64,000 bases of DNA. Origin: Trichaptum fuscoviolaceum. Taxonomy: Eukaryota > Basidiomycota > Agaricomycetes > Hymenochaetales > Trichaptaceae. Positions 3,804 through 27,364 of this stretch are shown in pieces (positions within the stretch are counted from its first letter, which is position 1; each line of letters starts with the position of its first letter). The DNA is taken from NCBI GenBank assembly GCA_910574455.1, contig CAJSYZ010000001.1:3579424-3643423 (forward strand), written 5' to 3'. Below the pieces are notes generated by a model. That model ran no database searches. It was not told the DNA's origin and saw only the letters and a program-made list of their open reading frames with translations. The position numbers and the translations under genes are program-made.

Positions 3804-3837
3804 CATCAGGGAATCTTCTTTTTTGCTTACGGCTACT
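3804..3837 (+). repeat. Left terminal inverted repeat of the giant element
   Basis: Reads CATCAGGGAA, one mismatch, CTTC, a T-run and GCTTACGGC, then a mismatch and ACT. It matches the reverse complement of 27332-27364 with about three substitutions and a length difference in the T-run. A weaker match continues inward (CTCTGAAGC at about 3853-3862 against CCCTGAAGC in the other arm). Confidence 0.75.
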
Positions 3838-3869
3838 TAACCGGCCTTAAGTCCTCTGAAGCCCTGGGA

Positions 3870-4215
3870 AGTAAAATTCTACTGATTTACTGATTTCAGG
3901 CATGTGGTTTCATTATTCAGGAAGGGGCTTACTGAATTCAGTGCCGTCAACTGAAATCAGTGCTCTCAGTGCCTCAGTCTCCAGCATTCAAGCATATCAG
4001 AAGAATTTATTCTGGCAGTTTAATTGCAGTGCTCAAGAGTAAAAAGTGTGTAAGACGTTCAAGTAGTTCATTCCATAAGTAATTCAGCATTTAATCATAT
4101 AAGTAGACTTTTTCGTCTGTAGGTTTGCAGTACCCAAGCGTGTAAGTGCGTACTAAGAGGTTCCAGTATTGGTTCATTCCACAAGTAATTTAAGACAGAT
4201 AAGTAGAAATCAGTG
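3870..4215. repeat. Left subterminal region with palindromic CTGA(A/T)3TCAG words and a degenerate direct repeat
   Basis: Several near-palindromes of the form ACTGATTTCAG, CTGAATTCAG and ACTGAAATCAG lie between about 3880 and 3965. A pair of direct repeats containing GTTCATTCCA.AAGTAATT and ATAAGTAGA occurs near 4068-4110 and 4171-4208. Such clustered words next to a transposon end may be transposase binding sites; that role is inferred. Confidence 0.45.
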
Positions 4216-4442
4216 CCTCAGTGTCCCTCAGTAACTACACCACGGCATCCTGATCCAGATCGTATTTCGCCACTTCTGCCTGTTCCTTGGCATACTCAGA
4301 GAACGAAGGCCACTGCAAGTTGATGATAGTAAGTGTTTGAATACAGTGGCGGGATGGTTAAAGCCAAAGCTCACCAGTGATCGACCTGCTCTTAAAAGTC
4401 TGCGCCGTCCGTAGCCGAATCCCATAATGAACCCTCGTCGTC

Positions 4443-7400
4443 CTAGCGATCGCCTTCGCCTTCCCCGCCCTTTCTGTCTGCGTCATTCGCCTCGCCCTCA
4501 GAGCCTCCACTGAATCCATCACCCACGCTAAGAACCTCGTCCACATCCTTGTTCTTATCCCGATCCTGATCCTTGTCCTCTTCATCGTCATTGTCCTCAT
4601 CCTGATCCTTGTCCTCGTCTCCCTCGCCAGACACACCCTCGTCCTCCATGTCGTCCTCCCTCTCCTTGAAATCCTCAACTTCTTCGCCGTCATTATCCTT
4701 GTCTTCGTTTCTCTCCTTGCACTTACCACTTTATTAGCGCCCTCACCATGTGTATACTCGCCGCTCGCATCCGCGTCTCCAACGTCGATATATAGGGAGA
4801 AATCCCTGCCAGTGACACCCGATCCAACAAGTTCGGCGTTCCTTCCCGCATTGACATCTTCAACGGAGTTGTAAGCTTCTATGCGGGACCGAACCTTCTC
4901 CCAGTTTGATTCAGTGAAAAACGAGGAATTTGACAATAAGTTGACATAGTCATCCGTATGAGGCTGCCACAGAGCACTAGTGAAGTACCACTCAGCACCA
5001 CCAAGCTCTTCTTTGATATTTTGCAACCGGGCTACCTGCTTATCGATTGCAACTTTGACCTGTCCATGAGAGATTCAGTGAATAAAGCCACTGCAAGTAC
5101 TGAAGTAGATAGATACCGCTGTTGCCGCAAGGGCGAGGGCACCTATAGGCTTTCCTATTGTGTTCTTGTCCAATACTTTATGCCGACCCAGGGCCAAGAC
5201 AATGTGCACGGACAACACTGAGACTACGAGGTCAGAGCAGAACAATCCTTGCTTCTGTGTACATTCATAGTCAATGCACGGACTCGAAGGGTGACATTGA
5301 GTGAAATCTCACACACCCTTTCCATACTATGCCAGCGTTCCCAGAGGAATGGTTCAGCTTTCTTCTTGTCGACCATCGTCTGCAACATCTTCACAATTTC
5401 TTCGGTCTCCACTGACTTAGAACGCTCGTTGCCGACGAAACTCGAAATTGACTGCTCGGCTTTCTCAAACAATTTCTTCCGCCAACTATCAGAGCATCTC
5501 TGGGCTGCCTACAGAATAGATCATACCTGATTCAGTATGGCCGATGTAAGACAAATAGGGATGACTCAACTAAAGAACAGATGTCGGCCAATTGTGTGTC
5601 GTAACTAAGTTCGACAGAATCAAATACTTTCCCCCACAGTGTTCCGATGGACTTATTGTCTGGGTTTTGCCATGGAGTTGTGGACTTTCCGACTGCGCGA
5701 TACAGCGAAGGCAGAAGAATATGAGTCCAGCCAGCCTGAGTTCCGGGAGGAAGACACTGATTCGTTGCCCTTTTTTTGCCGAGAGCGCGGGATCCCTCCC
5801 TTCCTTTACTATTTCTATCCTTATCCTCAAGTCCTACAGATGTCTGCATGTAAGCAAGTTAGTGGATGCATGTCACAAACATGAATGGATCAACGCACAG
5901 AGCTAGTAGTCCGAGAGACTTTGCGATGACCAAGATGAGCCTTGGTTGCGAGCACTTCGGGTTTGGGACTGAAGGATACTGTCGTCATCGCAGGTGATTG
6001 TGCTTGTGGTGTTGGCGACGCCTCACGACCACTTGCCTGTCAGAAGAACCGAGAATAAGTACCGAATCAATTGCAGCAATTAGCTCACACTTGCAATATG
6101 ATGTGCATGAACCGCCAGTGACCTCTTCAGATTGCGAACAGAGGTAGTAGATTTCATCTGTAGCAATTAGAGGAGTTCTTACCAAGGGAAGCTCGAAGAG
6201 AATTAAATACCAGTATATCAGCCTGAGAATGACTGTCTTGCGGTTCACTCTCCTTAGCAGTATTTAAGTCCTTGTCACTTGATCAGAAAACAATATGAAA
6301 TGGAAATTAGATGTGATTGACACTAACTGTTGAGGCAGCCTGGGATGGAGGCTTCTTCATATACACACGTTCATGCTAGCCTGTTTTAGATAGTAAGGAA
6401 GTGCTTTTGAAATTGGGTGGAAGAGTACGAATTACCACATCGATATGTGAGTTTGAGTCAGGCGGCGACTTCCTCTTCTTATTATTCACAATCATGCTGT
6501 CCTACACATAAACAAGGTTTAGTGGACATCCAGATACTTGCCAAAGAAAGGGGCACCAAAAGTAATCCTAATGAGTGTCGATGCCTACACATACCTGTAT
6601 CTGTAGATGCGACGCTGGAGACTGCCCCCTATGACCCTCAACAGAAATACCGTCCTGACGGGAAAATAGATGAGTATACGGGTGAGGATTAAAAGCAGAA
6701 TAAACTTACCAATACATCGAGTTGGGAGTTGACGATGTTCGTCATGCTCGCGCCCTATTCAGAGTACAATTTGGTAAGTAATGAAGGAAGTATATTCGAC
6801 GCCGGAGGCCACAACAAAGTATGGCACCAAGTCCATGCTTTGTTGTGTAGAACTCACCTGAATGCCCGATTGTCCCTTGATATTCTTCTTCTCCAGTGCA
6901 TAAAGAAAGAAAAATAAGTAGCTTGAACGAAACAGGAGATTATGAAGCCGCTTACCAGTGTTATATGAGCCTGCAACTCGGAGAGAGTGTCGCGGGATAG
7001 CTTCCTTTTCTTCAATTTGCTGCTAGCTCCATCCTGTTACGATACAGAAAAATTGTTAGATAGCCATCGTTGTGCATGAGACTCCACCGACGTATAGTTA
7101 TTGTGAATCAAACGATTTCTTTGAAGTATAAGCGGCACTTACATTGGCTTGGGTCGGTATTGTCAGTCTACTCACGTCCTAATTAAACGCACAATCAAAA
7201 TATTAAGATTTCCTCTGCCAGTCTAATTAATGCTCCATCCAACTCACAATATCAGTGTCGGAGTCAACGAGATGTGCCGTCTGTCGTTCGCTAGCTGAGC
7301 TATTCTTTACACCTTGGAAACTCGTGAGGGTTACTGTCACTCCTTCATCCTCCCAAGGACTAAAGTTCGCATCGTCTTGCGCCGAGACGGGGAGCCTAGT

Positions 7401-8747
7401 TTTTCCTTGTGTCAGCCAGGCTCACAACTTGTAATAAAGATAAGAATGTGAGCATTATAAGTGAAGAAGCTGCAACTTGCCAACCCGGGTGGCATCTCGG
7501 GGTCACAGTTAAGTGCCAACCTGAGTGTGGCACCGCCGCGCGCCGGTCAAGCCGGTCACTGGCACGGTGTCGCCAGGCGCACTCAGGCTCAAGTTAGTAG
7601 TAGTAATACTAATCTGTAGTACGATGTCGGATAAGCTTCAAGTAGCTGAGTCTAAATCAAGCTTCACACTTACTATCAAACTTGAATTTGTTTGAAATTG
7701 ATCTTTCGTACTATGATGCCAACGGTTGAGTAGTAGTACGACTTAAAACTCACAAGTCGATCTCCTCTGTCCCTGCGACCTCAGGGTTTCTGCCCTCTCC
7801 GCCGAAGAATGTGGATCCATCTGTGTTGCGAAGTGCCCTAACAGGTCGCTTTGTCCTATCGTTCTGCTTCGACGTATTGGGCGACTCTATCATGTCTGTA
7901 TCCTCACCAGAAAGACTGCTGTTTTGTCCTGCAAGCGTACTATGATATCCGGTGCCACTTATGGCACTATTTGAACCCTTTGCACCCTGCACGCGAGTAC
8001 GGAAAGGAAGTGCACCTCTGGTATCCTTTTTCCTAACTTTCTTTGCGCGCGCTCTGTTGGGCGCATCGGAGTTAGCTGCATCATAATGTGAGTTAAAGTG
8101 GTCACCCTTGGAGTCTAAAGTCATAAAGGCAAACAACTTACGAATCTTTAAATGTTCGCCGTCTTCAGCTGCACAAGAGCTGTCTTTTTCATCGTTCGTT
8201 GAACCTGTTATGCCCATATCTCATAACTCGACTGTCACTGACTTGAAGATAAGGACTCACTAGTTTCAGGGACGCCTTTCGACTTGTTTCGCCCTCGTTT
8301 GCCAGTGCCAGCCAGCTTAGGTGCAGTTGAGCCCATATGGGTGCGAATGTCAAGAGCCTTTGACAAATTGTTCTCAAGCTCCATCGTCTCCAGTATGGCT
8401 GTTTCCTGTTGCTCTGCTGCAGTTCTTTTCTTGCGTACCTTCTCAGATGCCTCTTGTTCTTTCGCTGCCCGTTTCTGTTCTGCGATGAGTTTTCTCTTCT
8501 CTCTCGCATACGCGGCTTGCTGTGCCGCAGCTTCGCGCAGAGCTGCCCGTTCTTCCTTCTGTTTTTCCTTCTCCTCCTTCTCCCTCAATGCCTCATCACG
8601 CTTTGATGCCTGTTCTTCTCTCCTTCTCTCCTTCCCTTCCTTCTCCCTCAATATCTCCTCTTTTGTTCGACGTGTTCGCAGCTTATTGACTACCGCTCCC
8701 GGATGCTGATCGCTATTCTTAGCCCGCGTCTGTCTTTGAGTTAACAT
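4443..8747 (-). CDS. Hypothetical Lys/Glu-rich coiled-coil protein, many exons, element cargo
   Basis: I do not recognise the family. The first exon (about 8261-8747; ATG at 8747, MLTQRQTRAKNS) encodes a basic segment KLRTRRTKEEILREKE followed by a long coiled coil of about 110 residues rich in K, E, R, A. The next large exon (about 7753-8130) is serine/basic rich. Several very small exons follow (for example about 6955-7030, DGASSKLKKRKLSRDTLSEL, and about 6860-6890). The last part is about 4443-5060, with GGAEWYFTSALWQPHTDDYV and a final Asp/Glu/Lys low-complexity tail ending GGEGEGDR. Splice borders are approximate. It is divergent from the transposase gene with about 590 bp of repeat-word sequence between. 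A nuclear or DNA-associated role is only suggested by composition. It could also be two genes rather than one. Confidence 0.42.
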
Positions 8748-8779
8748 TCCTGTGCAGTAGTAATAGGGGCACACTGGCA

Positions 8780-9330
8780 GGTGCTATGAATATCGATGGT
8801 GAGTCGACTCAGAGTCAAAGGTGCAAGTTAAAGTTCAAGTTGAAGATGAGGGCGCCTATTCAAGGAAAATTTACGCCCACTGCCAGCCTGCCACTGGCAC
8901 TCAGGCTGGCAGTGACTCGGAGTGCCAGTGAGCGAGCCTGAGTCACGGCGGTACCTGGCACTGGCGCTGGCACTGGCACTCAGGCTCACTCAGACTGGCA
9001 CTGGCAGGCTTCAACTTGAAGTTGCACTCCGACTCGGATTCCGGCGACCGAGACGGCAAGCCTGACACTGGAACTGGCAGTCAGTGAGTCAAGGCACTCA
9101 GCCGCAGCCTTCTACCGTACTACTAGCAAATCTGCCAGGTAGACTACTACTAGCTCCTACTACGCGAGTCCACCTTGGCGAACTCGATTCGCTGCCAGTG
9201 CTACTTCAAGTTCAAGTTGACAGCTTCAGCCTGAGGCTGGGGATTCATGTTCTAACTTAGTAAGTCAAAAGTCGAAGTAAGTCAAAAGTCGACTTCAAGT
9301 TGCTAATAGGTACTACTATAGGTTGCATCC
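8780..9330. repeat. Repeat-word cluster between divergent genes (5' side of transposase)
   Basis: Dense runs of CACTGGCA/TGCCAGTG, CTCAGGCT/AGCCTGAG, GACTCGGA and TTCAAGTTGAA words, plus TACTACTAGTA tracts. This gap separates the coiled-coil gene and the transposase gene, so it should contain both promoters. The same words recur in the other gaps of the element. Confidence 0.7.
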
Positions 9331-9336
9331 AAGTCG

Positions 9337-12300
9337 ATGCCGGTAACACGGCGAAAGCCCAAACCCGTTCATTTTACTGATTTCTTCCCCCCATCCATTC
9401 GATGTACCTTCTCCGACTGCGACAGAAGGTTTAAGAATCAATCCGCAAGAACAAGACATGAATACTCAGCTCATCCATCATCATTTGCATCAGGACCTGC
9501 TGCTTATGGTTATGATTCATCACCCATTCGACCCGCACAAGTTCCAGAACCTAAAAGTATCTCGAACTCCCCTGAACTCCGGGTCGAGGGTCAACTTGAA
9601 GATAAAATGGGCTGCGGCTCTTCAAGTTACGATTACGACATCTCTATACTTACGCAGGATATCTCGATGCTTAGCATAGGCCGAGACGAGCTGCTTCAAG
9701 ATTTAGACGGAGCTGATTCTCTGTCCCATCATTCTGTCACCGGAAGTGATGGCCGTAGCGCATCCTCTGAAGATTTGGACTCCGACATTGGAGATTATAA
9801 GGAGAGCGAGGATAACTTGAAGGTGTATCACAGATACTTGAATGGTGCGTGTCATGTTTATTGTCCCCGGTTTACTGCAGTACTCTGACACCTGACACCG
9901 TGCAGCCACGCCATGCGATGCGGCAGGAATTTCCTTAGAAAATGAAGAACCACCCGTTCCGCGAAACGAACCTGTGTCTAATGTCTGGTTTCCCTATTCG
10001 TGCAGAGCAGATTTCGAGCTCGCAGATTTTCTGTATCGGGAAGAGCAAATGTCTGCTGGGAACATAACAAAAATTCTCGGAATCATGAAGGCTTATCAGC
10101 TGATTCAGGTGGCGGAGAATGTAAAATCTGGCGGATGTTCCGAATTGGATACGACAGAGCCTGACAATGACTCGGATCTAGGTATAACTAGTTCGCTACT
10201 TGATGGAGACGCACAAAATTTGTACACCGTCATTGACGCTACGGAAGTCGGTGATGTGTCTTGGAAGTCCTTTAGTAACTTCTACACGGACGACAATGGC
10301 CAAAAGGCGACAAACGAGAACACCGAGTCATGGAAGAGGAAAGAATATGATGTATGGTATCGGGATCCTCTGGAAGTGATCCGGAATTTGGTGGACAATC
10401 CGGCGTTGGAAGGCGAATTCGACTATGTCCCGTTTCGCGAGTATCAGCCGAAGGAGGACTCTGATGACAAAGAACGAGTATTCAGAAATTACATGTCCGG
10501 AAATTTTGCTTGGGAACAGGCTGTAGGTCATGAATCATAAACTCGCAGGAAACATGCTGATTATCCTTGACCTAGAACAAGATCTACGCCGAAGATAAAG
10601 CAGTCCATGGATCTATGTTTGTTCCGGTGATCTTAGGGAGCGATAAGACAACAGTCTCTGTCGGAACTGGAAATAACGAATACTATCCGTTGTATCTCTC
10701 CATCGGGAATGTATCTAACAAGGCCCGGCGGTCACAGAAATTGAATACAGTCCAGCTTGTAGCATTTCTAGCAATACCAAAGAGTGTGTATCATACCGTA
10801 ATATTTGATTAGCTCTGACACATTTTGCAGCTGAGCGGCAATACGAAAAGTCAGATGAATTCCGCCGCTTTCGACATCAAATTTTTCATTCGTCTATATC
10901 AAAAATCTTGAGTTCACTGAAGACCGCCATGTCCATAAACACTGAGTTAACCATTCTCCGGTGTCCTGATGGTCACTTGCGTAGGTCGGTTCTCGGACTC
11001 GGCTCGTATATAGCCGATTATCCGGAACAGGTGAGTCTATGCGCAATATGCACTGGATGGTGCTGCAAGTAAGTACCGTCCTTTCCCAAAATCATATCCG
11101 AGTCTGAGGCAATGACTTACTGTGGCGGCATAGATGCACAGCACCTCACAAGGACCTAGATAATTTGGAATTTGTTTCAAATCCTCGAACAAAAGAGCTG
11201 CACGAACAATTGATAGATCAAGTAGATGGCAACAACATTAATAGAGCAACAATCCGGAAAGAGTACGGGTTCCACCAGGATATTGTGGTACGTACTTCAA
11301 CTTCTTCACTGGATGCGTATTCTGCAACTTGTATGTTGTTCTGTAGCCTTTCACCAATGACTTTCCGCGCGCAGATATATGCGATCTCATATCTCCGGAC
11401 CTGCTGCACCAAATCATCAAAGGCGTGTTCAAGGACCATCTTGTTGAGTGGATTTGCCAGTGCATGACCACGACAGAGCTGGATATTGTGGATAAAAGGC
11501 ACTATTACCTTACAAGTCGTTTAATGTGAATACCATTGCTAACTTTCACGTAGAATCAGAGTTGCTGCTCCTTTTCCTGGTCTTCGCAGATTTCCTGAAG
11601 GTCGAGGCTTCAAGCAATGGACAGGTAATGATTCAAAGGCACTTATGAAAGTATGTGGTATTTTCATCATGATCTTGTTTGAGGCAGTGGTTTGCTGATA
11701 TCTGATGCAATCCGCTTAGGTGTATCTTCCGGCTATTGTGGGCATTGTACATGATGATATAGTTCACGCATTGAGTGCATTTCTGGACTTCTGTTACCTT
11801 GTGCGTCGGTACACGATTACAGCCTCAACTCTTGATCAGATTAAAGCCTCTCTGGATCACTATCATCAATATCGCAAAATATTCATAGCTAAGGGCATCC
11901 GGGATAACTTCTCACTTCCACGACAGCATGCCATGATTCACTATCCTACAATGATCCCTCTCTTCGCTGCACCAAGCGGGCTGTGCTCATCGATCACAGA
12001 GAATAAAAACACATTCACGCGGTCAAGGAGACATGGCGGCGCTCGAACAGAAATGATCCTTTGGGACAGATGATCACAGCAAACCAACGACTCAGCAAAC
12101 TTATTGCGTCGAGGGCAGACTTCAAAAGGCGTGGACTGCTGGACGATACGCTGGCTGAGGCTATGTGGAATGCCTTGCGAGACGTTTTGCGGAAAAATAT
12201 GTCAGAGTCAAAGACGGATGACGCCGAGAAGGCCCCAACCCAGAGGGAGCAGATGCAACATCATGGCATACAAACAACAGGGGCAGCCGATGATACAGAG

Positions 12301-13313
12301 GACTTCTTCGATGACATTGTGGGCAACCAAGAGCAAATCGAAATTGCTGACCTGGAGGATTCCGGAAGTTCAGTGGATGAGCCCCAGTGTGGTGCGGTTC
12401 ATAGCGTAGAATGCCAGCTTCGCTTGGGCGGCAGAAATGACCCTTTGAGCTTGATGTTAATGGCTTCGAAACAACGTTAGTATTACTTAGTAACCCGTGC
12501 TTTTGGTGCTGCACATCTGACTTCTCTGTTGTTATACTTGCAGAGTCCAGTAAGGTGTACCCGAAACAGCTCAACGCGCTTGCGGCGATAAAAGGCCATC
12601 CAGAGCTTCGACAGCTCCGACAGCTCATTAAAGAATACTTATTCAACAAGTACGAGAAGCGCAATTCCAACTTAAGGGGCTCCTCTGGCAGAGCCGAACC
12701 AACAGCTGAATTGGACATGAACAATGACTTCTCAATTTTCCATTCAGCCACCGCTTTCTTTGCCTACCGTGGCGAATCGATCCCAATAGAACAAGCAATG
12801 AGGGAGGTGATCAGGTCCAATCCCTCTTGGCGCGGAAAAGCAAGACATGACGCAGTCCTTGTTCGAGTTAGCCCCCGCAAAAAGGGGTTTTCAGGAATGA
12901 GAGTTGCCCGGGTTATGCTTCTTTTTTCCTTCACCGCTAAAGGGGAGCATCAGGACTGCGCTCTCGTCCAATTGTTCAAGCGTGTTGGAGACTCGCCTGA
13001 CCCAAAAACAAGTATGTGGATTGTCGAGCCGGAATATGAGTTAGAGACCTCTACCGCCTGTGTTGAATGCTGTTCTGGTGTGAATGCCAGTGGCAGACGT
13101 CACTATCACCGTGACTGCAAGGCTCCGAAGCTATTGGTGATAGGTATAGGGGACATCTTTCGTTTGGCTCACCTCCTTGGGGTTCCAAAGGGTGATGAAT
13201 GTCCGCCGAAGTCATTGACACCTGAGAAGTCCCTGGACTTTTATGATAGATTCTATGTTAACCGATTTGCTGACATGCACATGCACGAATCTTTGTACGA
13301 AAATAGACAGTGA
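9337..13313 (+). pseudogene. Plavaka-family transposase, apparently frameshifted
   Basis: DDE-type transposase expected to excise and reinsert the element in the nucleus. ATG at 9337 begins MPVTRRKPKPVHFTDFFP, followed by a C2H2 zinc finger (CTFSDCDRRFKNQSARTRHEYSAH). After intron 845-905 of the 9-kb block, family motifs run in order: WFPYSCRADFELADFLYREE, EYDVWYRDP, GEFDYVPFREY, NYMSGNFAWEQA, MFVPVILGSDKTTVSVGTG, RCPDGHLRRSVLGLG, PFTNDFPRADI, PDLLHQIIKGVFKDHLVEW, GRGFKQWT, VYLPAIVGIV, SLPRQHAMIHY, SSITE, and a C-terminal domain ending MHMHESLYENRQ. The Asp of GSDKT, the Asp in the PRADI/PDLLH stretch and the Glu of SSITE are candidates for the catalytic triad (my guess). Near 12004-12010 the frame shifts directly after SSITENK: the expected HIHAVKETWRR motif continues in another frame, with no room for an intron. 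This suggests a lost or gained base pair and hence a non-functional copy, unless it is a sequencing error in an A-run. Confidence 0.85.
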
Positions 13314-13479
13314 TAAACATAAACTTTTCATTCAGCACATACGGAGTATATTGAAACTTATGAATTGAGGATACTACGGTACTGAAAGAAAATGATATGA
13401 AAACAGACCTTCTTCAGTGTTGTAGATGATGGTAGCCAAATATTGCAGTCAGTGCGATGGTCGGAAATCATTCCCCGGG

Positions 13480-14330
13480 CGGCCGCCGGCGTCGAGTAGT
13501 ACAGTAGTAGTAGTACTACTAGTAGTAGTACTAGTACTAGTACAGTACTATTGGTACAAATTTTTTTACATAACACCAATCCAACTTGAAAGCCTGAGTG
13601 CTTTCAAGTTGAACACTGGCATTTGACTCGAACCAATGACTCGGACCTACTACTAGTACTAGTACTAGTAGTAGTACTACCTCAGGCCGGAAGTTCTCAA
13701 CTTGAATCCGGAAAGAGCCTGAGGCATGCTTCAAGTTTCCACTCACTGGTAGCTACTAGTACGTTGGCTCGAAGTTACAACTTGAAACAGTACGACAAAT
13801 TCAGTGTTGAGATATAATAAAATGACAGTACTAGTTATGACCTAGTAAAAAACAAACTCTCGAGAAGCTCACATTGCCATCAGCGGACTCAAGCTCGAAC
13901 TGACTCGCCGAGTCGGATCATGCCAGTGACCTACCTCAGGCCAGAAGTTCCCCATTGGCATCCGGAAAGAGGCATGCTTTCCTCTCCAAGTTAGCTATGT
14001 TTTGAACTTGAAGTTACAAATAGTACGATTAGCATAGTAGTAATACTGTATACTAGTACACATGAAGCGCTTCAGAGGAAAGCGTAGATATGATGGAGGA
14101 TGATTGAGTAGCCTCAGGCTGATAGTGGTGTATCACTGCAGTTCCCGACTTGCATAGTATGAAATATCAAAAAAAAAACTTGAATATGAGTACTTTAAAC
14201 TTCAAAATGTACCACTACTAGGCTGAGTAGTAGTACTGTAGTACTACGACTTCAAGTTCATGTTGAGCACCTGTCATAAAGATAAGTATATGAATATTAT
14301 TAAATATTATTTTGTCATATTCAAGAAGAT
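13480..14330. repeat. Repeat-word cluster downstream of transposase
   Basis: Begins with long TAGTAGTAC/TACTAGTAC tracts (13495-13550 and 13650-13680) and continues with CAACTTGAA words, CCTCAGGCC, GCCAGTGACC and GACTCG words. Two stretches are near-copies of each other: CTCAGGCCGGAAGTTC with CATCCGGAAAGAG-like sequence at about 13681-13730 and again at about 13933-13975. No coding pattern. Confidence 0.65.
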
Positions 14331-16453: not shown

Positions 16454-16489
16454 GCTGGGAGTTTGACAGTAACCTAACTTCGAGCCTCA

Positions 16490-17780
16490 ATGGTAAGAAA
16501 TACCAGTAATGGCGTGCCACTACCAGCGGCGGAGAGTAGTAATTGAAAGAAAAGCAAGGCTTGTTGACGAAGGATGGTTCAAGTTTAAGCGCCGTGTGAA
16601 CGGCGTGGATCTAGTATAGGGGCATCATCGGTCATCATCCTCAGGCTGAGCCTGCCAGTGAGTACCAGTGCCAGTCACATTGGTGTGAGTGAATGATGAC
16701 AGGCGGTAGTTACTAACTTACTAGTACTAACTTTAGTGAACTCTCACTCAGCGGAAACTCAGCAGACTGCCGATTTGTGGGACCCTCGATAAAGGCCTCT
16801 GGCGACTTGGTCCTTCAGTTATATCGGGACAATTTGAGCCACGTTCAAGTTTGTGCCACTGCCACTGCCACTGGCAGGACCCGGCCCGGGATCAGGTCAG
16901 CCTGCCAGCCCAGTGAGTGAGGCTGCCGGTGTTGGCCTAGTACTACTAGTAGTAGTAGTACTATAGTAGTAGTAGTAGTAGTAGGCCCTTCCGGCGCTCT
17001 CTTGCTATCCGAACTCAGGTGTGTCAGGCCTTGAATCCCCTCTACTTCTGGATGTCGGTTCAGCTCTCAAGAACCCGGATTCTGCCCCATCTGTCGCAAC
17101 TACTTACGAAGCCCATATCATTGTGCTTGTCACCGGCCCTCCTCAACTGAAGCTCAGCCAGGCCTTGAAGATCGTCTGCCAGTGCCAGTGGCCGGAACTT
17201 GTTCAGAGCCGAATCGGATGTTCCGCACATGTATGTATTTTAGTACTACAACTAGAGCTCTAATACTACTAATACTACTACTAGTAGTATTACTAACAGT
17301 GGTAGACTCGGAGATTGTCACTCACTGGCACTCACTGGCAGGGCACTGGCAGTGACAGGGGACTTCCTGTCCGGAGTTCGAAACGGGCCGTTGCCAGTGC
17401 TGGCAACTTGAACTTCAAAGTCGTGCTGAGTCACCGGCGCCGTGCACTACTAGTACTAGTAGTACTACTACTAGTAGTAGTATAGTAGTAGTAGTAGTAG
17501 CTGCCACTGGCAGCCAGATTCAAGTTGAACTTGAACCGCTGACTCGTCACCGCCGCGTGCGTCACGGTGACTCCGACTCGCAGTCACCAGTGCCAGTGGC
17601 AACTCCGAGTCCTTGAACTTCAGCCTGCTACTACTAGTAGTGAGCGTCCGGACTAGGCTTTAGCAGTAACCCAATACCCATCCAGAGTCAAATTGAACCT
17701 GAAACTTGAACTAAACTGCGCTGGCTGTCTCTGTGCCCCAGCCCGCCGCAACTTTTATCAATACATAGCAGAAAAAACAT
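16490..17780. repeat. Large repeat-word cluster between divergent cargo genes
   Basis: About 1.3 kb without a supported gene. It contains at least four TAGTAG/TACTAG tracts (about 16937-16985, 17265-17295, 17446-17502, 17627-17642) alternating with CACTGGCAGTG, AACTTGAACTT and CTCCGACTCG words. This is the densest example of the shared vocabulary and separates two divergently transcribed cargo genes. Confidence 0.65.
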
Positions 17781-17790
17781 CAACTTGAAC

Positions 17791-20700
17791 ATGGCATCAG
17801 ATACTTTCAACGTATTTATGTCCGGCACAGGAAACGCTGATAGTAGGGCTCACCATATTGTTAATGGTCCGTATATCGTCATGGTATACTGACAGTTGTC
17901 TGAAATATTCACTACTAATTTCCATTCCTTTACTAAAAACAGCGGCTAGTATAGGATTGGGTTCACACCCCGTTGCGAAGGAGGATATTTACTTGGCAAA
18001 CGTCCTTGACCGTATAAAATTCATCTTGCAAGCATGGGTGGAGAAACCCGGAACAAAAAAGACAGACCTAGCAGCACGCGCAGCTGTAATAATCGCAAAC
18101 GGACTTCCGGACAAACCGTGAGTGACGGTCTCAGCCTGATTACTATGCGCCTGATTCTGACTCTTAAATTTGGCCCACTGGCAGTGGCGAAGTCTTGGAA
18201 TCACATACCGCTCAGGCTGCTAGTGACTGTGAGGCTAGTACCAGTAAGGTGCCAGTGCTGGAAGCTGACGCCGAATCCGAGTCGTGAGTAACGGTATCAG
18301 CCTGAGTGCGCGTCCGAGTCTGACCATTCTTGAATTTGGAATGCACGCATCAAGTGGCGAAGTCACGGAATTACATGCCAGTGAGGCCGGAAACTTGAAC
18401 TTGAAGGTGTCGGAACATGAAGCTGACGTATCCGAGTCGTGAGTTACGGCGCCAGCCTGAGTACGCATCCGATTCTGATCATCTGACAGTGGCAGCAACA
18501 TCCACAAACACATCGGCCGTTCCCCCTACGACGATATCATGAAGGCCTTAGCCTCTATGAAAGAGCTAGAGCAACTTCGGATCGACACTGAGGAGAAAGA
18601 AAGAAGGCTTCGAGATGAAAAGGAAGATTTCGAACGGAGGCATAGGGAACTCCTGATAAATAAGCGGGACAGTGATCAGGAGCAATTAAAGCTTTTGCAG
18701 AATGAGTTGATGAAAACCAAAAAACTTATCTCAAATGTCGAATCAAACCTCTCAGAAGCCAACTTCAGCCGGGCGACTGACTCACTCCAGCTTCACAAGG
18801 AGAAGGATATACATGAGGAGCAATTGAAAAAGCATGAGGACGCTATTGAAGCTCTAAAGAAACAGCTCGCTCAAGATTACACCCTAATCGCGAGAGCTTC
18901 AGCTCAGGAGAGTCTCTTCGCCGTGACTTCGCGCAGGCTCACTAACCTGGAAAATTATCGAAAGCAGTCACTAGAAAAGGAACAGCGGATTGTAGGACAT
19001 ATACGGGCTATTGACGACGCATTCGTTGATGTGACTGAGGAATTGGACTCGAAGGCGGACAAAGTGACACTCGAGGAGATGGCTGGGACTTACAAGTGTT
19101 TGCAGGAGACAGTGAAGGGTCTTGTATACACAGTACACGACTTACAGATTAGTGCGGCAGCCGCCAAAGGGGTAAGCCAATTTTGAGCTGCTATCGTAAA
19201 ACAAATGAAGCTCACAGGATCTCACCCAGAACGAAGCCGCCAAAGCCAGCAGTAAAATACGCACCCTCTGCGAGGACAATAGGGTAGTCGTCATGAAAAG
19301 CTTCATAATTGCGTTCCCATTAGAGAAAGGATTCTTCTCTCCAAAACAGGTCATCCCTTATGACGTTACTGGCGAAAGTGGTTTTATGATTCGAAATTTT
19401 TTGAACAAGGTTGAACAACTCTACATGAAGTTCGCGACCCTATCACCTGGGCCGGGCAAGAAGCTAAAGGAAGGACGACGTACAGGCGAAGTCGGCATGA
19501 GTGGCATAGCTCAGGGCCCAGCGACAATCCTGTCTAATGACATTGCTATCATTCCAAGGCATCTATTCGACGACCTGATTGTCGACATCACCAAGTCCTT
19601 GGCAGAGTTAGAGCTGACAGAGGCGTATGCGAAGGGAAATGATGAAGGAAAGGGGAAGGGAAAGGGAAAGGAAAGAAAGGGAAAGGGAAAGGGAAAGGGA
19701 AAGGGAAAGGGAAAGGGAAAGGGAAAGGGAAAGGGAAAGGGAAAGGGAAAGGGAAAGGGAAAGGGAAAGGGAAAGGGAAAGGGAAAGGGAAAGGGAAAGG
19801 GAAATGGAAAGGATGAGTTCGAGGCTGTGGATGTGTCGGAGGATGCATCGAAGGAAAAGACGGCGACGCCATACTCCTGGCAGCCACCACTTAACGCATC
19901 AATCGTCGACCAGTTCAAATTTTTCCTGGTCCGATTTTTTATAGTCTTCGAATTTCACCGAAGACTATTCTTCCTCCTCGATCGCCGGCTAAGCCAGCTG
20001 GAAAGGAACCCGATGGATCCTCAGACTATTGATTTGCTGGATGCCGACGCGGCCTGGAACACAAACGCGAAAGTAATACTGGATAAGGATTTTACCGGCT
20101 ATCTCTTTGACGACCAAATGTATGAACATCGGTTCAAAGGCTTGATGGTAAAGTTCCACTTCGAGGACCACTTTGCCAGGATGGCTGAGCTGGACGGGCA
20201 AGAGTACGTGGGCCCGGAGGATATACCGTGCGTGGCTGTAGGCGGGACTCTCGAAGTGCCGCAGGTCAATGTCGCTTGAAGGAGATGCAAGAATACTTCG
20301 ACCGTTTATGCCTGAAAATGGAGGCCACCGTGCCAATGGCATCCGCCGACCTGAAAGCGGGTCAGACGAACGAACCCATCCCCAAAGCCCGTGAAGACAC
20401 GAGCGTGTCTCCCGATGATTTGAGACTACGGCGGCTATTGAATCGACGTAATGAGCATAGGGAGAAGGCTTTAACCCTCGACACTGCGATGAGAATTATC
20501 TTGGTAGACGAACTCGTCCCTGACATTTTCAACGACACACGATTCCGAATGTTTTTAAACAAGGTTGCCCATGACCGCTCTGAAATCAGTGACCCCGCTG
20601 GCCTTCGCACATTTGTTGAGAATGCTGAGGACATTTTGAAAGTGCAAAAGGATGTTTTCCCCGAACCTGTAAAAACCCGACTGCTCACATTATGCGAGAT

Positions 20701-20905
20701 AGCGGATCAAAACAAGCCTTACGGCCGGAATTTCAATGAGTCGCATATCAGTGGGCGTTTTTGGGGCCAGAAGTTGCGGTCCATCTTACTAGGCGCCAAC
20801 TCGCAGGCTGAGGATGAACTACCCATTGATTCTTTGGTACTTCGGATTTTAGGCGCAGGCGTGCAGCAGCTCACAGATGTGTCAACTCAGACGATCACAC
20901 AGTGA
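17791..20905 (+). CDS. Coiled-coil protein with a long Gly-Lys repeat tract, element cargo
   Basis: Not recognised. ATG at 17791 starts MASDTFNVFMSGTGNADSRA. Exon 2 (about 17943-18117) gives GLGSHPVAKEDIYLANVLDR. The exon from about 18493 encodes a coiled coil of roughly 150 residues (MKELEQLRIDTEEKERRLRD onward), then EELDSKADKVTLEEMAGTYK. The next exon (about 19217 to about 20237) contains a globular part and an in-frame Gly-Lys tract of about 60 residues encoded by a hexanucleotide repeat, then a hydrophobic stretch FKFFLVRFFIVFEFHRRLFF. The last exon (about 20282-20905) ends VQQLTDVSTQTITQ; its junction is uncertain (a 44-bp intron at 20238-20281 fits the frames). Total about 850 residues. 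The Gly-Lys tract would be strongly basic and could bind nucleic acid; this is inference. Frames are open throughout, so it looks intact. Confidence 0.6.
18118..18490. repeat. Intron built from tandem repeats, each starting with a GTGAGT donor-like sequence
   Basis: The second intron of the coiled-coil gene contains GTGAGT plus a following CAGCCTGA and CTGA(T/C) block at 18118, 18284 and 18439 (periods of about 166 and 155 bp). Copies 2 and 3 are each preceded by GAAGCTGACG and CCGAGTC. Only the first donor is needed to join the frames. Confidence 0.7.
19648..19804 (+). repeat. (GGGAAA)n microsatellite, about 25 units, inside coding sequence
   Basis: Nearly perfect hexanucleotide array. In the gene frame it codes alternating Gly and Lys; the other forward frame reads Arg-Glu and the reverse strand Phe-Pro. 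It is not the TTAGGG telomere unit. Length is likely to vary between strains by slippage, always in steps of two residues. Confidence 0.92.
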
Positions 20906-20909
20906 AGCC

Positions 20910-21510
20910 ACTGGCAATGGCGGATTTGGAGGTATCCGTGTACGAGTACCGTGACAGGACAACTTGAAGGGTTTGGATGCAACGAGCTGCTTGATCTTTA
21001 TCTTCCTGGTCAACTACTACTAGTATGATGTTTGTCATTTTCTTGAATGGCGTGTTGCGTTCAAAGTTTGCTTCAACTTCAAGTTGAAGTTACTAGTAGT
21101 AGTAGTAGCGTCATGATTTGTACTCCACATTATCATTGAATTTGAATTCAAGTTACTTCTCAGCCACCTCAGGTTAAGGCTCCTTCAGTGGCAGCCTCAG
21201 CCTCAGGTGCCAGTGAGTGCATGGTGCCACCTGAGTGCCAGTGCCACTGGCAGTCACGGTGGCACCACTGGCACTGGCAGTGACTCCGAGCCTGTCCGAC
21301 TCGGAGTCGGACTCGGAGTCACGGTGGCGCCGCACCGGCGTGTGAATGATGAGTTGAAGTTGTATAAAAGACTGGCACTCACTGGCCTCGGAACTTGAAC
21401 CCTCAGGCTCTGCTGGCAGTGACGTACTACTAGTACTACTATTTATTTAGTAGTAGTCTCTTGTTTTCACTTCTACTACTTACTAGTAACCAGCAACTAC
21501 TACCAGTACT
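20910..21510. repeat. Repeat-word cluster upstream of the protease-like gene
   Basis: Contains CAACTTCAAGTTGAAGTT palindromes, TAGTAGTAGTAG tracts and a very dense GC-rich block (about 21200-21340) of GCCAGTG, CACTGGCA, GACTCGGAGTCGGACTCGGA and GTGGCGCC words. No gene supported. Confidence 0.65.
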
Positions 21511-21516
21511 ACCACT

Positions 21517-24236
21517 ATGACATCCACCGCCCCCCAACCTCCAGGCTTGCCAGGGCCACATCCAAGGAATACTACTAGTAGAGCAAACAATGACCGACGC
21601 GGATGTGAGTTCTGCGTTCTCCATCTCTGTCACAGGCAATACTGATTGCTGACTACCCCAATAGTACAAGACGAAGATGTACTGGGAGTTACAACGCCAC
21701 CTTTCAGTGCGCAATGTGCGTCCTATGCCTTCCTTCACTGACACTGGCAATACTGATTACTGCATCACCCATCTCTAGTTTTGCAGGCCCTAGGGGTTAA
21801 CGTTGAAGAAGCTGCAGGAGGACATTCTTCATCAATGCCGACTGAAAGTGAGTCCTTCCTTCCCTTCACTGACACTGGCGAAACTGATTGGTACTTAACC
21901 CGTTACCAGTTTCACAGGCCCCAGAAACTGCGATTACTGATGACGAACCTGTGCAAGGACAAGGTTCGGGGGAACGATTTATCATTGCCGGTGGCCCTGC
22001 CCGTGGGTCATTCACCGTCACGAGTTCCTTAGACTCGGAGGGGGGAAGCCTCCTACTATCAATTCCTCTCGCATCCCTTCAACCAGACTTGAAGTCACAG
22101 CAAACCAAGTCCGTCCTTGTCTTCAGCGGTTGTGAATACGATTCTCGCGCAAAATCCTAACGCTTATCTCCCACGACGAACACATGTGTCAGAAGAGGAG
22201 CAGAAAGGTTACTACCTTGGCTTCCCTGGCAAACCGCGCCTGCTCGGGCGAACCGGTCCCAATTGGACGGCGACCAAAGAACGTAAATATGTGGGCATTG
22301 TTGGAAATCACCGGATTGCCAATGTATGGCCGCAACTGCTCAAGAAGATCATGAAGTATCTCGATTCCGAGAATTTGCGGTGGAACAGTCTGGAAGCCAA
22401 CCGTGTTGCCTACGGAGATAGTCGGGTGTGCCCTGTTTTTGTTTTGATCGGAGTCAACGACCCGTCACTTCGCACTGAAGATGCGTGCCGCATCGCGGAA
22501 CGCGTTAAAGAGTTCCTCTTTGAAATGCGCATCTTCGACGTTGAGGTCGAGCTCAGGGAGCGAAAAATCATTAGCGCCTCAGGCCAGGGCAAAGCTTCTG
22601 TCAGTGTTCCACCTGTTGTGCGCACTGGCACCGGCGACTCAAATACTCTGGCTAGCGGTCATGCTGAGACTGGCGTTGGCAATACCGCTCCCGTTCACAC
22701 TGGCTTCAGTTTTCATCCGGAACTCACCAACCTTCCCAGACGTTCCGATCGTCGCACTGCTCCGACGAACAATGGAGGTGCGGGGGATGTCACTGAGCAT
22801 AATGACGGTAACAGCACCAGGCCCCTTGTCGCTAGCGCTCACGGGGCAGAACCCTACGCCTACCCAACAGAGGAACTGTTCACCGCACCTGCGGGAGCCG
22901 ATAATTATTTCCGCCTGTGGGATCGCATGATGGATTCCCCAAGCAGGCCAGTGGCAGCTGCCAACAAGCCAATCAGTCGTATGACACCGTCTTTCTCCAT
23001 GGTCACAGGAACTTGCCTTGGCAATCTGGAGGGTGGCTTCTCAACGGGGTCGCTCTTTATCCTACAAAAGCTCGATAACACGACGTTCAAGGTGTTCATC
23101 CTCGGTACTCGCCATGGCAACGTTCCTTTGAAATTCGGAGACTACGATCCATACGCAGATACAACAAATAAGCCGCGCGACCCAAACGACAATTGCCCAA
23201 TTTATCTCTTCTCTCGCGAGGCTCTAGCCGCCCATGTGCCAATGATTGGCGCGCTTCACGATGAGTTAGAAGCGGCAGCGTTTACTCAGCCACTGGCACC
23301 TGATCTTCCGCCGTCTGCTGAACAACAAGCTTTCGCGGATATCGTAAACAAGTGTCAATTCATTGAGCAATCTTGGCTTGATAAGACGTCATCGCCATGT
23401 TTGTGGATTAATAATCGTATTGGGAAAGTGGCCAATGCTCCCTCTCGAAGAATGGGTAACTTGACTATCTCCAAGAGACCCTACCTTACGGATTGGTGCT
23501 TGATCGAGGTGGACGACCAATGCCTCCCCAACGAATTTGAATTTTCCTCTACTGATGGTGAAGGTCTCAGTTGGAACAATTTCTATAACGTCATCGACAT
23601 TAATAGGCTTCCTCCATCGTCGGCAGCTCAGTCTGTACCACGAGAAGCACTCTTGTCTAGGCTTGGCTGGAAAGGGAGGGACTTCTTTAGTCCAATCCGA
23701 ATTGCGGGATATGTTCCGGAAGAAAATATATTCCCCCGGGTCCAGGAGCACCAATTCGACGCAGATTATGATTATGGATGGACTTTCATCGACAATCTCG
23801 TCGCTGTGGGGTTTAAGCGAACTGTGTACAAATGGGGCTGGAAAACTGGCCATACGTTAGGCGAGGTCAACAATGTTGCTGCCGTTCTCAGATCTATGCA
23901 GGTTTCCCCTGGGCACGTTGAGCAGACTACGCATATTGCTTTACAGACCCACCGGGTTCGGTTGGTTTAGGGAATATCGGGCATAGGAACAATGCTATGT
24001 TCGCAGAACCGGGGGATTCGGGTGCCATAATCATTGATCAGCACAGACGTGCAGTTGGTACCATTTTAGCTTGCGGACTCATCGAAGCGAGGGATAGGGA
24101 TAATCAGAGTGTACTCGACGGTTATACTTATGGTGTCGCTCTATGGCAAACGGTGGAAGAGCTTAGGACCTCTTTTTCTCTAGCTGAAAGTGAATTCAAG
24201 CTAGGCATGAATGCACTTCCGGACAATGAAGTATAA
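21517..24236 (+). CDS. Chymotrypsin-fold (PA clan) serine protease homologue, element cargo
   Basis: ATG at 21517 (MTSTAPQPPGLPGPHPR). Short N-terminal exons are separated by similar introns, then a long frame (about 22120-23950). The first half holds an N-terminal domain (VWPQLLKKIMKYLDSENLRW, VFVLIGVNDPSLRTEDACR, IFDVEVELRERKI). This arrangement resembles a fungal family of two-domain proteins with a trypsin-like C-terminal part, which I know only by pattern. Catalytic-triad candidates: His in FILGTRHGN, Asp in TDWCLIEVDD, Ser in AEPGDSGAIII. The GDSG block is in another frame (23947-24236) and needs a short intron or reflects a frameshift near 23900-23990; the 22.1-kb junction is likewise not resolved. 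No signal peptide is visible, so it is probably intracellular. Protease activity is inferred from motifs; substrate unknown. Confidence 0.62.
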
Positions 24237-24239
24237 CGA

Positions 24240-25900
24240 TGCTCCTCTCAACTCCTATAGTAGTAATTAGTGGAGCTCTTTTCTTATTCTCATGCGATGG
24301 TGTTGCGTATTCGTACGTTTGTTTCCTGCTCTGTGTTTGATGGCCTTTGGCGTGCGCTTTATGTGGTAGTACATGATGTATGACTTGAGGAAATGGGAAT
24401 GATATTGCAAGTGTGGTTTCCATCCGTGAACTTGAAGTATACTGCTAGCTAGTAGCCAGTGATAACTTGAACTTGTACTTGTTCTAGTGACATGATTCGC
24501 GACTTGGACTCGGACAGTTGGAGGATCGTCTTCCCTCGGCGGATGGGCCCTGATTTGAAGTTTATGGGGAATTATTGCTTATTACTTCAAGATGAAGCCA
24601 CTTGAACTTCAGGCTGTATAATCATGGTCTTGAATCATTGTATGCGTAACAACGTTGGAAGTTAAACTTGAAGGGGACACGGAAAGTTCAAGTTGCGGAG
24701 TCATACGACTCAGCCTCCAAGTCGGATCATGATGCATTGCCATCGTTCAAGTTGAAGCTCAGGCTGCCACTGCCAGTGGCAGTGGACTCTGACCCTCCTC
24801 AGGCTCCGGTACCGAACTACCACCATGTTCGAGTAATACTGCTATAGTAGTGGGTTTATCATAAGATACATTTCTGCAAATACTGTGAGATATATATATT
24901 GTAGACGATGCACGAAGAGGCAGCATGAAGATGGTTTACGGCATAAAGGAAATAGGGATAGATATGTACGAGGTCTGTACAACTTGAAGGATGGGGAACG
25001 GCGAAGAAAGAACTTGAAGGACCTCCTGAAGACTCGGAGAAACATGAAATAGAGTGGATAGAAAAGGTGAGTAAATATGAATGCAATCCAAGGAACCACA
25101 ACTCATATGTACCATCATGATGATAGGCTTCGTACTACATACTATTTCAGTGCACGCGACATCATCTCTGCTGGTCCTGGCACTGACAAACGTCAGCCTG
25201 AGCAGCTTCGTTTTCGAACTTGTTGAAGCTACAGCCTGCCAGTGACTACTTAATTTGTCACACGTTACCCCTCATGAACTTGAAGGACAGAAGGGTGTTA
25301 AAGCACTTTACCATCACATTTGAGGTCTCAAGAACTGCATAGTGATAGAAGTATGGATATCATATAAGTTTTTGAGATAATATCGAGAAAATGAGGCAGG
25401 AAAAAGTGAACAAGAGCATAGATTTTAGCTCAGCCTGCTGCCACTGCACTGGCAGTGGCAGCCTTGGTGCCAGTGCCAGTGAGCGCACAGCCAAAATCAT
25501 AGGAAGGTATCCTGTGACTGCCAGTGTCACTTCACTGCCAGTGGCAAGTTGAGTCACCGCTTTTTACACCCACCTCAGGCTGTATTGTTGAACTTGTACT
25601 TCCTCCACCGTTTTCCTCGAGGAAGCCCAAGAAACCTACGGCGACGTGGGCGAACTACACAACCTCGCTATCGCTCGGAATTACAGGCCCAGACGAGGAA
25701 CGAAATTACCTGAGCTCGAACGTTGAAAGACTCAGTGTTTAGTAGGCGATTGGAAAGTTGTCGCACCACCCCCCTCCGCGGTTCCCCGGTCACTCAAAAG
25801 AAGGCGTGCTTTAAGGCGGACAGCCGCAGACTCGGACCCAAGAGGCGAAGATAGAAAGTGTGGTGGACGAGGAGGAGTGCTAGCCTGAGTGGGCTTGAAA
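24240..25900. repeat. Repeat-word region downstream of the protease-like gene, no gene supported
   Basis: Scattered AACTTGAAGT, CACTGGCAGTGGCAG, CTCAGGCT and GACTCGGA words at about 24420-24850, 25180-25270 and 25420-25600. Open frames here are short and without family features. Confidence 0.5.
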
Positions 25901-25914
25901 CAGTTTGAATGTGT

Positions 25915-26283
25915 CTCGATCTCTTGAAATTTCGTGAGTTCCTTCTTTCCGTTACCGATTCCGAGTCCTTGGAAATCAGGTATCACGAAGTTTTTAAATG
26001 TTTCTTCAGAGAAATGAAGACAGCTTCAAAATGACTGTGACTCGATCTCTTAAAATTTCGTGAGTTCCTTTTTTCCGTCTCCTCGGAAATCAAATATCAC
26101 AAAGTCTTCACAATGCTTCTTCAGAGAAATGAAGACAGCTTCAAGATGACTGTGACTCGATCTCTTAAAATTTTGTGAGTTCTTTTTTCCGGATCAACTT
26201 CGGAAATCAGATATAACAAAGTCTCCCAATGCTTCTTCAGAGTAATGAAATCAAGAAGACGACTTCAAGATGAACTTTACTTG
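25915..26283. repeat. Three tandem copies of a roughly 115-126 bp unit
   Basis: Units start at 25915, 26041 and 26156 with CTCGATCTCTT(G/A)AAATTT. Each contains GTGAGTTC, a T-run with CCG, CGGAAATCA, TATCACAAAGT-like sequence, TTCTTCAGAGAAATGAA and GACTTCAAGATGA-like sequence. Similarity falls toward the third copy. Confidence 0.85.
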
Positions 26284-26394
26284 ATTTCGTACTAAAGCGG
26301 ATTTATTCTCTTCCATCAGAATCAGAGCGCTGCGCAGTGTGACTCGGACTCGCAGGCGGTGGGCGGTGAGCGCTCTTTCGAATAATCCAGAAGA

Positions 26395-26679
26395 ATGGTT
26401 CAAACAGCTTCAAGTTATAAAAGGAGGACAAAATATCTCTTTGCTAAATATCCTATGCTCGCGCGATCATTAACTGTCATGCTACTCAACATTATAACCT
26501 TTATCCTGCGCTTCATAGCAGCATTTATGTCTAATTGCGGAGTCCGAGTCGGAGGAAGGCGCGAGTTGGACGAAGAGGACGCGATTGACAAAGGTGATTC
26601 AAGCCGTTTACTATCTCAGTACAGAATGAAAGCTGACCCTTTGTTTCCTACAGTATACGATAGACTCGGAGAATTCTGA
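26395..26679 (+). CDS. Possible small protein, 94 residues, with a hydrophobic segment
   Basis: ATG at 26395 (MVQTASSYKRRTKYLFAKY). A hydrophobic stretch SLTVMLLNIITFILRFIAAF could span a membrane; the C-terminal half is charged and ends YDRLGEF. It lies near the right end of the element, after the tandem repeats. No homologue recognised; it might equally be a chance frame or the exon of a decayed gene. Confidence 0.25.
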   Translation: MVQTASSYKRRTKYLFAKYPMLARSLTVMLLNIITFILRFIAAFMSNCGVRVGGRRELDEEDAIDKGDSSRLLSQYRMKADPLFPTVYDRLGEF

Positions 26680-27331
26680 CGCTACTAGTGGCAGCGTCGG
26701 TTGTTATGAGAGGTGTGAGGTTCGTTCAAAAAATGCTAGGGTATGTATAACTTCCTGCCTCAGCACTGTTTATTCACTTACAAGTAGTCTACCATCTTCC
26801 AGTCTCTCTCTATGATTCAGGGCTTGACTTTTCAAAATTTCCACAACAACTTAAATCGACACAGGCATGACTCAGGCTAGTACTACTCTAGTAGAAGTAG
26901 TAGCGGTGCTCCTTCAAGTGCAAATTGTTTTCTCGCTTCCACCAGAACAAACATTTTACTTTACTATGAAAGATTAGAAATATCATATTGCTGGCATGTG
27001 TTTATCAGATATAATATGTATTCAAGTTGGTAAGTGCAATGATACACAGCATCAAAGTTGAGTGATGACATCCAATTTGGAGAACTTCCGTTTCGAAACT
27101 GATGCACTTATGTTGCACTTACCATTGCACTTGAACTGCCCACTGGCATGCCGGTGCTTAAACCTCACTTAATCCTGGCTTGCCGCCTGATGTACAATTC
27201 CCCTCCTTTTGCACTGATTTTATCCTGAAACGCCGTGTTTTAAGGCCATCAGGCAGCCAGACAACCCTTCAGGCAGGCGTGGCAGCGCTTCGACCCATTT
27301 AAGAAAGCTTCAGGGCGCGCCAGGACGCGCC

Positions 27332-27364
27332 AGTCGCCGTAAGCAAAAGGAAGTTTCCCTGATG
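27332..27364 (-). repeat. Right terminal inverted repeat of the giant element
   Basis: On the plus strand it ends GTTTCCCTGATG; its reverse complement starts CATCAGGGAAACTTC and contains TTTTGCTTACGGC, matching the left arm at 3804. It ends 163 bp before the NFS1 start codon. Confidence 0.75.

Follow-up and report, generated by a model that had tools for sequence, protein, structure and literature searches.

Do the matching inverted ends that stand 23.6 kb apart in this stretch of the Trichaptum fuscoviolaceum genome (64,000 nucleotides, here called the window) enclose one giant DNA transposon, and do the extra genes between them belong to it? DDE transposons are usually regarded as small elements of one or two genes. 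We searched the window's own genome (59.1 Mb in 12 contigs, the window lying on contig C1) and conclude, with a probability of roughly 80%, that the unit is a PlavakaB-type cut-and-paste transposon that has turned into a giant six-gene element and has recently spread to about 34 sites. Between its ends lie, in order, g1 and g2 (both on the minus strand), a Plavaka transposase (plus), g4 (minus), and g5 and g6 (both plus; Table 1).

Ends, target sites and copies

A 701-bp query from the left end gave 177 candidates. The best 40 were scored: 35 matched at 99-100% identity and 5 at 86-87%, and 28 of the 35 high-identity matches begin precisely at element base 1. The right-end query (765 bp) returned 41 matches from the best 40 of 324 candidates. 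With a pairing limit of 120 kb, a right end on the same strand was found for 34 of the 40 left ends, the window included, at spans of 15-81 kb (median ~30 kb, 1.13 Mb in sum). Later insertions probably sit within the longest spans, some of which may be wrong pairings. The end pattern CATCAGGGAAN{6,12}TTTTGCTTACGG has 188 occurrences genome-wide, against 0 for its reversed control. A repeat finder records the inner portion of the terminal pair as 42 nt at 71% identity, with the arms 23,444 nt apart. Chance pairing of the ends is ruled out by the end matches, the 34 same-strand pairs and the pattern count.

Every one of 12 distinct insertion sites, seven from pairs of end loci and five from fetched copies, carries a 2-bp duplication (TC, TA, CG, AA, TT, TG, CA, TG, GA, CG, CA, TT), and a third matching base occurs at none of the 12. 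A search for a paralogous empty site, in which 7 flank pairs were joined with one duplication retained, gave no informative result (0/7); the lone spanning match was the pair's own flanking locus.

Both ends were read through in eight copies, that of the window among them. Six of the eight are whole (the window's and five fetched; 23.5-24.4 kb) and differ in 0.09-0.46% of aligned bases. In the remaining two, of 15.2 and 17.9 kb, portions of the interior are missing and foreign stretches are present.

The genes travel with these ends. Inside the 34 end pairs, markers were found for g1 in all 34, for g6 in 32, for g5 in 31 and for g4 in 30; the marker of transposase exon 2 is present in 27 pairs and that of g2 in 25, and 18 pairs have all six. 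All these counts are lower bounds, because a small private insertion or deletion (indel) breaks the transposase marker exon in three whole copies. With two further pairs from the end pattern added to the 34, listed high-identity matches fall inside end pairs for g1 (36/36), the transposase (28/28), g4 (32/32), g5 (33/34) and g6 (44/48), and the outside matches on contigs C1, C4 and C10 lie close to right ends that lack a paired left end. In 8 cases g6 occurs as a tandem pair at a distance of 4.34-4.45 kb, a spacing that fits copies of 27.9-28.2 kb.

What a preliminary description of the window had observed is borne out, and its interpretation is borne out in part. The 23.6-kb unit with inverted ends is real, its ends fall where they had been placed, and they recur in at least 34 pairs. 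Of the two target duplications suggested, AT or TC, TC stands on both flanks and AT is dropped. Second loci with the same ends and genes, the check it put forward, do exist, as the 18 pairs with markers of all six genes demonstrate; and the listed high-identity matches of g1, the transposase and g4 all fall inside end pairs, so that the outcomes it had set against itself, no second such locus or separate interior elements, did not come about. Its central claim of a giant multi-gene Plavaka transposon is supported by the whole copies, the duplications at all sites and the gene markers between the ends. Its multi-gene cargo holds as well, with the count corrected from four genes to five (g1, g2, g4, g5 and g6).

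Genes of the element

Gene models come from a home-made finder; its 5' exons of g1 are doubtful, and it put false introns into g5 and g6, where longer exons are open. The transposase, read up to the interruption of its frame, matches PF18759 over positions 4-325 of 325 (E 1.6e-117; 392.8 bits against a cut-off of 26.3), and a zinc-finger match near its N-terminus is under the Pfam cut-off. As modelled, its intron at 11499-11553 begins with GC rather than GT in all six whole copies.

No accessory protein scanned has a Pfam match above cut-off (g1 was scanned without its acidic tail and g2 as its first exon only); g1 minus the tail has one weak match under cut-off. By eye, g2 and g5 contain many charged, coiled-coil-like stretches. 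Copies differ by more than 100 bp in the length of the long Lys-Gly repeat of g5, and an under-cut-off match of this protein to TrAA12 (E ~1e-5) is taken as a composition effect. PDB searches with g4 and with the g5 C-terminus gave no convincing match. Among 5.8 billion proteins, g4 has one relative at 68% (P0001) and another at 30% added by profile (P0005); g6 has relatives at 93% (P0003) and 81% (P0004). None of the four is named.

The g6 protein contains the motifs TRHG and GDSG, which, on our interpretation, are the His motif and the Ser motif of a chymotrypsin-like protease. Searches for a trypsin-like serine protease returned nothing, with 0 Pfam families for 789 amino acids and 0 PDB matches for the sequence and for a 4-row profile; in the protein, Pfam and single-sequence PDB searches g6 was used without a short stretch near its N-terminus.

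Accessory genes in diverged Plavaka families

Do the accessory genes keep company outside the recent copies? With g1 as anchor (best 150 of 324 candidates), loci fall into three identity classes. Synteny was counted where a partner gene lay on the expected strand at the expected distance, and was compared with 100 shuffles of match positions, in which contigs C6 and C12 were given assumed lengths; across classes and genes the shuffles gave means of 0.2-1.8 and a maximum of 6. In the window's own family, F1 (g1 at 98-100%, 36 loci), transposase exon 2 occurs at 21 loci, g4 at 28, g5 at 27 and g6 at 27, among the matches listed. The class with g1 at 88-90% (78 loci) probably comprises two families, F2 and F4; here g4 accompanies g1 in 48 (mostly 66-69% identity), g5 in 50 (mostly 34-35%, some 28%) and both in 44, against shuffle means of 0.7 for g4 and 1.4 for g5 (maxima 4 and 4). 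In the class at 81-82% (36 loci), the transposase (86-87%) is found in 25 and g6 (42-45%) in 13, against means of 0.25 and 0.7 (maxima 3 and 4).

The g2 gene (best 150 of 362 candidates) recurs as well. At 86-90% identity it adjoins g1 in 53 of 67 loci and precedes g4 in 40, and at 75-78% it has a divergent transposase exon 1.26-1.45 kb away in 37 of 56 loci and precedes g6 in 21. To the left of the transposase, F1 has both g1 and g2, and the more diverged families have at least one of them. The end sequence too is shared beyond F1, given the 188 pattern matches overall. At the one F2 locus that was read (L058), g4 and a Plavaka transposase with 80-84% identity in DNA point towards each other, in the arrangement of the window. 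This locus overturned an earlier view that the 69% homologues of g4 are unlinked to Plavaka (1 of 61 lay within 15 kb of one of the best 150 transposase matches).

Diverged families thus keep subsets of the genes in one order, well beyond the shuffles: g1, g2, transposase, g4 and g5 in one, and g1 or g2 with the transposase and g6 in others. This conserved order supports the proposal that the accessory genes belong to the element. A core of transposase, g1 and g2 seems to be joined by g4-g5 and g6 as separable modules, and the different gene combinations of the families imply that modules were lost, were gained or diverged past detection.

Selection and condition of the copies

Both g4 and the transposase are under purifying selection between families. 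For g4 of F1 against F2 (L058), the nonsynonymous rate (dN) is 0.193 and the synonymous rate (dS) 0.434, a ratio of 0.44 (Fisher p 5.6e-8), and three transposase pieces give dN/dS of 0.29, 0.24 and 0.08. When six recent copies of F1 are compared, 4 nonsynonymous and 29 synonymous differences are found in the transposase as far as its interruption, 12 and 14 in the tested parts of g1, g2, g4 and g5 pooled, and 25 and 4 in g6. The g6 gene thus differs from the transposase (p 3.5e-9, Fisher) and from the other four genes (p 0.003); fast evolution and relaxed evolution are both possible for it.

Single-nucleotide polymorphisms (SNPs) between F1 copies cluster in blocks, at 11304-12303 in the transposase and at 22804-24303 in g6, a pattern that recombination or gene conversion between haplotypes would produce.

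The six whole copies contain 56 private indels of 1-2 nt, 37 of them in coding DNA, and small private indels interrupt the g6 frame of the window copy. Per copy, private indels stand to private SNPs as 9:7, 9:9, 8:14, 8:46, 7:16 and 15:26 (indels counted by hand, SNPs computed). Because indels equal or outnumber SNPs in two of the six copies, long-read assembly errors are the favoured explanation, under which the genes falsely look broken; the indels may also be decay. Individual genes do have open frames in some of the copies, and open g4 exons and g6 frames are numerous among the genome-wide matches.

Cargo, composite or working element?

Several results count against a six-gene transposon in working order. 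Among the matches listed, transposase or g6 accompanies g1 at none of the 78 loci of the 88-90% class, g4 and g5 accompany it at none of the 36 loci of the 81-82% class, and a listed g1 stands beside none of the 56 copies of g2 at 75-78%. Likewise, 20 transposase exons at 85% have no listed g1, g4, g5 or g6 at the expected place, though 3 pairings with a g2 at 75-78% do involve these exons. No six-gene set common to all families emerges, but these absences are weak evidence because the comparison covers the best 40-150 matches per gene. The amino-acid excess of g6 does not differ from neutrality (p 0.28) and its pattern may be relaxed selection only, and the transposase and g6 SNPs are not independent because they fall in blocks. 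The transposase frame is interrupted in all six whole copies, and private indels are no rarer in coding DNA (0.48 per kb and copy) than in other DNA (0.29). The element may be inactive today.

The alternative that survives best, which we regard as unlikely, is an ordinary Plavaka whose passenger genes were captured from the host by chance and have no role in transposition. It would account for accessory proteins that resemble no known transposon protein among those scanned, for a g6 without purifying selection among recent copies, and for accessory content that varies between families. It sits poorly with g1, g2, g4 and g5 keeping order, strand and spacing even where g5 is only ~35% identical, and with the purifying selection on g4 between families. 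Nor was a host copy seen among the listed high-identity g1, transposase and g4 matches, because all of these lie inside end pairs.

That smaller nested elements merely happen to be framed by outer Plavaka ends is very improbable. Such a composite would suit the 28 of 34 end pairs whose span falls outside 23.5-23.8 kb, and the copies with deletions and foreign inserts; against it, the same 23.5-kb interior is found in six whole copies, the end-pattern search gives no interior ends in the window, and the gene order recurs in other families. As the main account it is largely refuted by the shared whole copies and the genes inside end pairs.

A giant transposon of the PlavakaB type remains the preferred explanation, and its accessory genes look like working parts and not like random cargo. 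The Plavaka DDE transposase would bind the inverted ends, excise the element and insert it with a 2-bp duplication; ends and duplications display this anatomy, and the reaction itself is inferred from the family. Judging from their place beside the transposase, g1 and g2 would most likely be its auxiliary DNA-binding or assembly partners, much as TnpA serves TnpD in Spm. A second, separable module would consist of g4 and g5, and a third of the protease-like g6. Its tandem duplication in some copies, and the absence of any sign of purifying selection among recent ones, make g6 the strongest candidate for a rapidly evolving factor directed against the host or a rival element. We infer that the extra proteins may form a transposition or counter-defence module, as the preliminary description suggested. 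A stronger version is doubtful enough to be offered tentatively: together the five accessory genes would be a conserved machine for transposition and counter-defence, enabling a DDE transposon to move units of at least 24 kb, with exchangeable modules (g4-g5 and g6) and with the spacer palindromes of at least two families as a binding array for element-encoded DNA-binding proteins. The many copies, and families with subsets of the genes, make the accessory roles testable by deletion.

Palindromes in the gene spacers

The spacers between the genes are dense in odd palindromes, words of 9-11 nt centred on C or G such as ACTASTAGT, AGTASTACT, TCAASTTGA, ACTTSAAGT, GCCASTGGC, ACTGSCAGT, TCAGSCTGA and ACTCSGAGT. 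In the non-coding DNA of the element, those with arms of 5 are 7.5 times as frequent as a simple expectation; the figure is 1.3 for its coding DNA and 1.0 for the remainder of the window. Eight spacers hold 76 odd palindromes, where none of 100 fourth-order Markov sequences exceeded 50. None with arms of 4 lies in the 587 bp at the left terminus. Outside 37 element ends, flanks of 1.5 kb stand at 1.5 times expectation, with three flanks high. AST trinucleotides recur at 3, 6 and 12 bp.

In F2 the spacers (L058, 1-1690 and 3525-4240) reach 18.9 times expectation and share 14 words with F1 against 3.9 expected; the spacers of the two families can be aligned only in short low-complexity words. 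The word CACTGSCAGTG occurs 1800 times genome-wide (35 for the reversed control). On C1, 91 distinct sites are listed: 52 are no more than 6 kb from an element gene, a zone amounting to 10% of the C1 stretch examined, and 39 lie elsewhere. The words are enriched in the elements, yet not confined to them. They may be putative binding sites of an element-encoded protein, on one reading, or the product of a repeat-generating replication process, on another.

Relation to known elements

Is such an element new? PlavakaB is described with termini CATCA..TGATG, a 2-3 bp target duplication, and C(2)C and H(3-4)H motifs between the second D and the last E (Kojima 2025, PMC12730594). The element fits PlavakaB by its PF18759 transposase domain, its 5'-CATCA..TGATG-3' termini and the 2-bp duplication at 12 of 12 sites. 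A CxxC (CAIC), which may correspond to the C(2)C motif, is present in the transposase translation. Some families of the lineage carry a TET/JBP dioxygenase gene, the only carried gene named in the passages on Plavaka (PMC12730594); the window element instead has a conserved set of five accessory genes, and Pfam scans of its predicted proteins and long open reading frames gave no match to TET/JBP.

Plavaka elements are abundant in Marasmius oreades (PMC8290104) and Agaricus bisporus (PMC7473861); the main-text passages on them, the part compared here, mention neither element lengths nor accessory genes, and the inverted-end motifs are reported to be summarised in a supplementary figure of PMC8290104. 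The passages found in the open-access PubMed Central literature, as distinct from preprints and supplements, describe no giant multi-gene Plavaka of mushrooms (PMC9674265 and PMC10799480 included). The 'Plavaka giant repeats' of Amoebidium appalachense measure up to 50 kb, carry many genes and a Plavaka transposase, and lie beside adintovirus insertions (PMC11244446, section 7). Their genes and layout differ, and the passages on them describe no ends or duplications, whereas the window element has gene models with introns, a fixed gene order, exact ends and no matched tyrosine recombinase. They are the nearest precedent found. Measured against the literature passages found, the conserved five-gene accessory set at ~24-kb size is new, the Plavaka type itself being known.

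CACTA/Spm elements encode two proteins, TnpA and TnpD, and have repeated words at their ends, whereas the window element has six genes and repeated words that fill the spacers between genes. The two are alike in large size, in having more than one element-encoded protein and in a related transposase clade: the CACTA transposase and Plavaka are placed in the related clade CMCT (PMC12730594), and a 20.5-kb CACTA element is known from soybean (PMC2613891). Starships of Ascomycota are giant, are classed by their tyrosine recombinase and have very variable cargo, according to the passages on them in PMC12134995. The window element is likewise a giant fungal element with several genes, but differs in its DDE transposase, inverted ends and largely shared gene set. 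No tyrosine recombinase of the Starship captain kind was matched in Pfam scans of the proteins or long open reading frames of the six genes (g2 by its first exon only). If the lineage holds, it would be a basidiomycete counterpart, by way of a different enzyme, to the giant elements of Ascomycota.

Polintons (Mavericks) encode a protein-primed DNA polymerase B and a retroviral-like integrase, and their target duplication is longer than 2 bp. The least credible account of all, a DNA virus or Polinton-like descendant that acquired a Plavaka transposase and whose protease is a virion protease, can point to the size, inverted ends and protease-like gene that recall Polintons and to the adintovirus insertions near the Amoebidium repeats, and founders on the 2-bp duplication, on introns in the gene models and on Pfam scans of predicted proteins and long open reading frames that found no polymerase (polymerase B included), integrase, ATPase or capsid.

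Features and surroundings

Table 1. Coordinates of the element and its parts (positions within the window; a dot marks features without strand)
Feature	Position	Strand	Remarks
Whole element, Plavaka-type DNA transposon, family F1	3804..27364	+	23,561 bp
Left target-site duplication	3802..3803	.	TC, 2 bp
Right target-site duplication	27365..27366	.	TC, 2 bp
Left terminal inverted repeat	3804..3833	+	begins CATCAGGGAA, read as CATCAGGGAATCTTCTTTTTTGCTTACGGC
Right terminal inverted repeat	27336..27364	-	closes TTCCCTGATG, read as GCCGTAAGCAAAAGGAAGTTTCCCTGATG
g1	4392..7348	-	split into many small exons; C-terminus acidic; modelled 5' exons uncertain; conserved last-exon core 4748-5059
g2	7750..8747	-	two exons, basic, looks coiled-coil rich; from gene model, genome search with first exon, and adjacency
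Plavaka DDE transposase	9337..13310	+	about nine exons; frame broken here by a small private indel
g4	14587..16453	-	protein of 547 amino acids; last exon 14587-15759
g5	17791..20905	+	coiled-coil-like; Lys-Gly repeat ~19650-19810; conserved C-terminal part 20276-20902
g6	21590..24236	+	protease-like, ~790 amino acids, GDSG motif; main exon 21910-24236
Gene spacers with dense odd palindromes centred on C or G	7350..25900	.	7350-7749, 8748-9336, 13311-14586, 16454-17790, 20906-21589, 24237-25900; genes between excluded
Tandem units, right subterminal part	25906..26291	.	units ~115-126 bp; repeat finder, families D7, D8, D11

The element is flanked by what, by eye from their open reading frames, we presume to be a GH6 cellobiohydrolase-like gene on the left and an NFS1-type cysteine desulfurase-like gene on the right. 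Just beyond the left end lie two direct repeats of 124 nt that are 92% alike (window 2939-3199).

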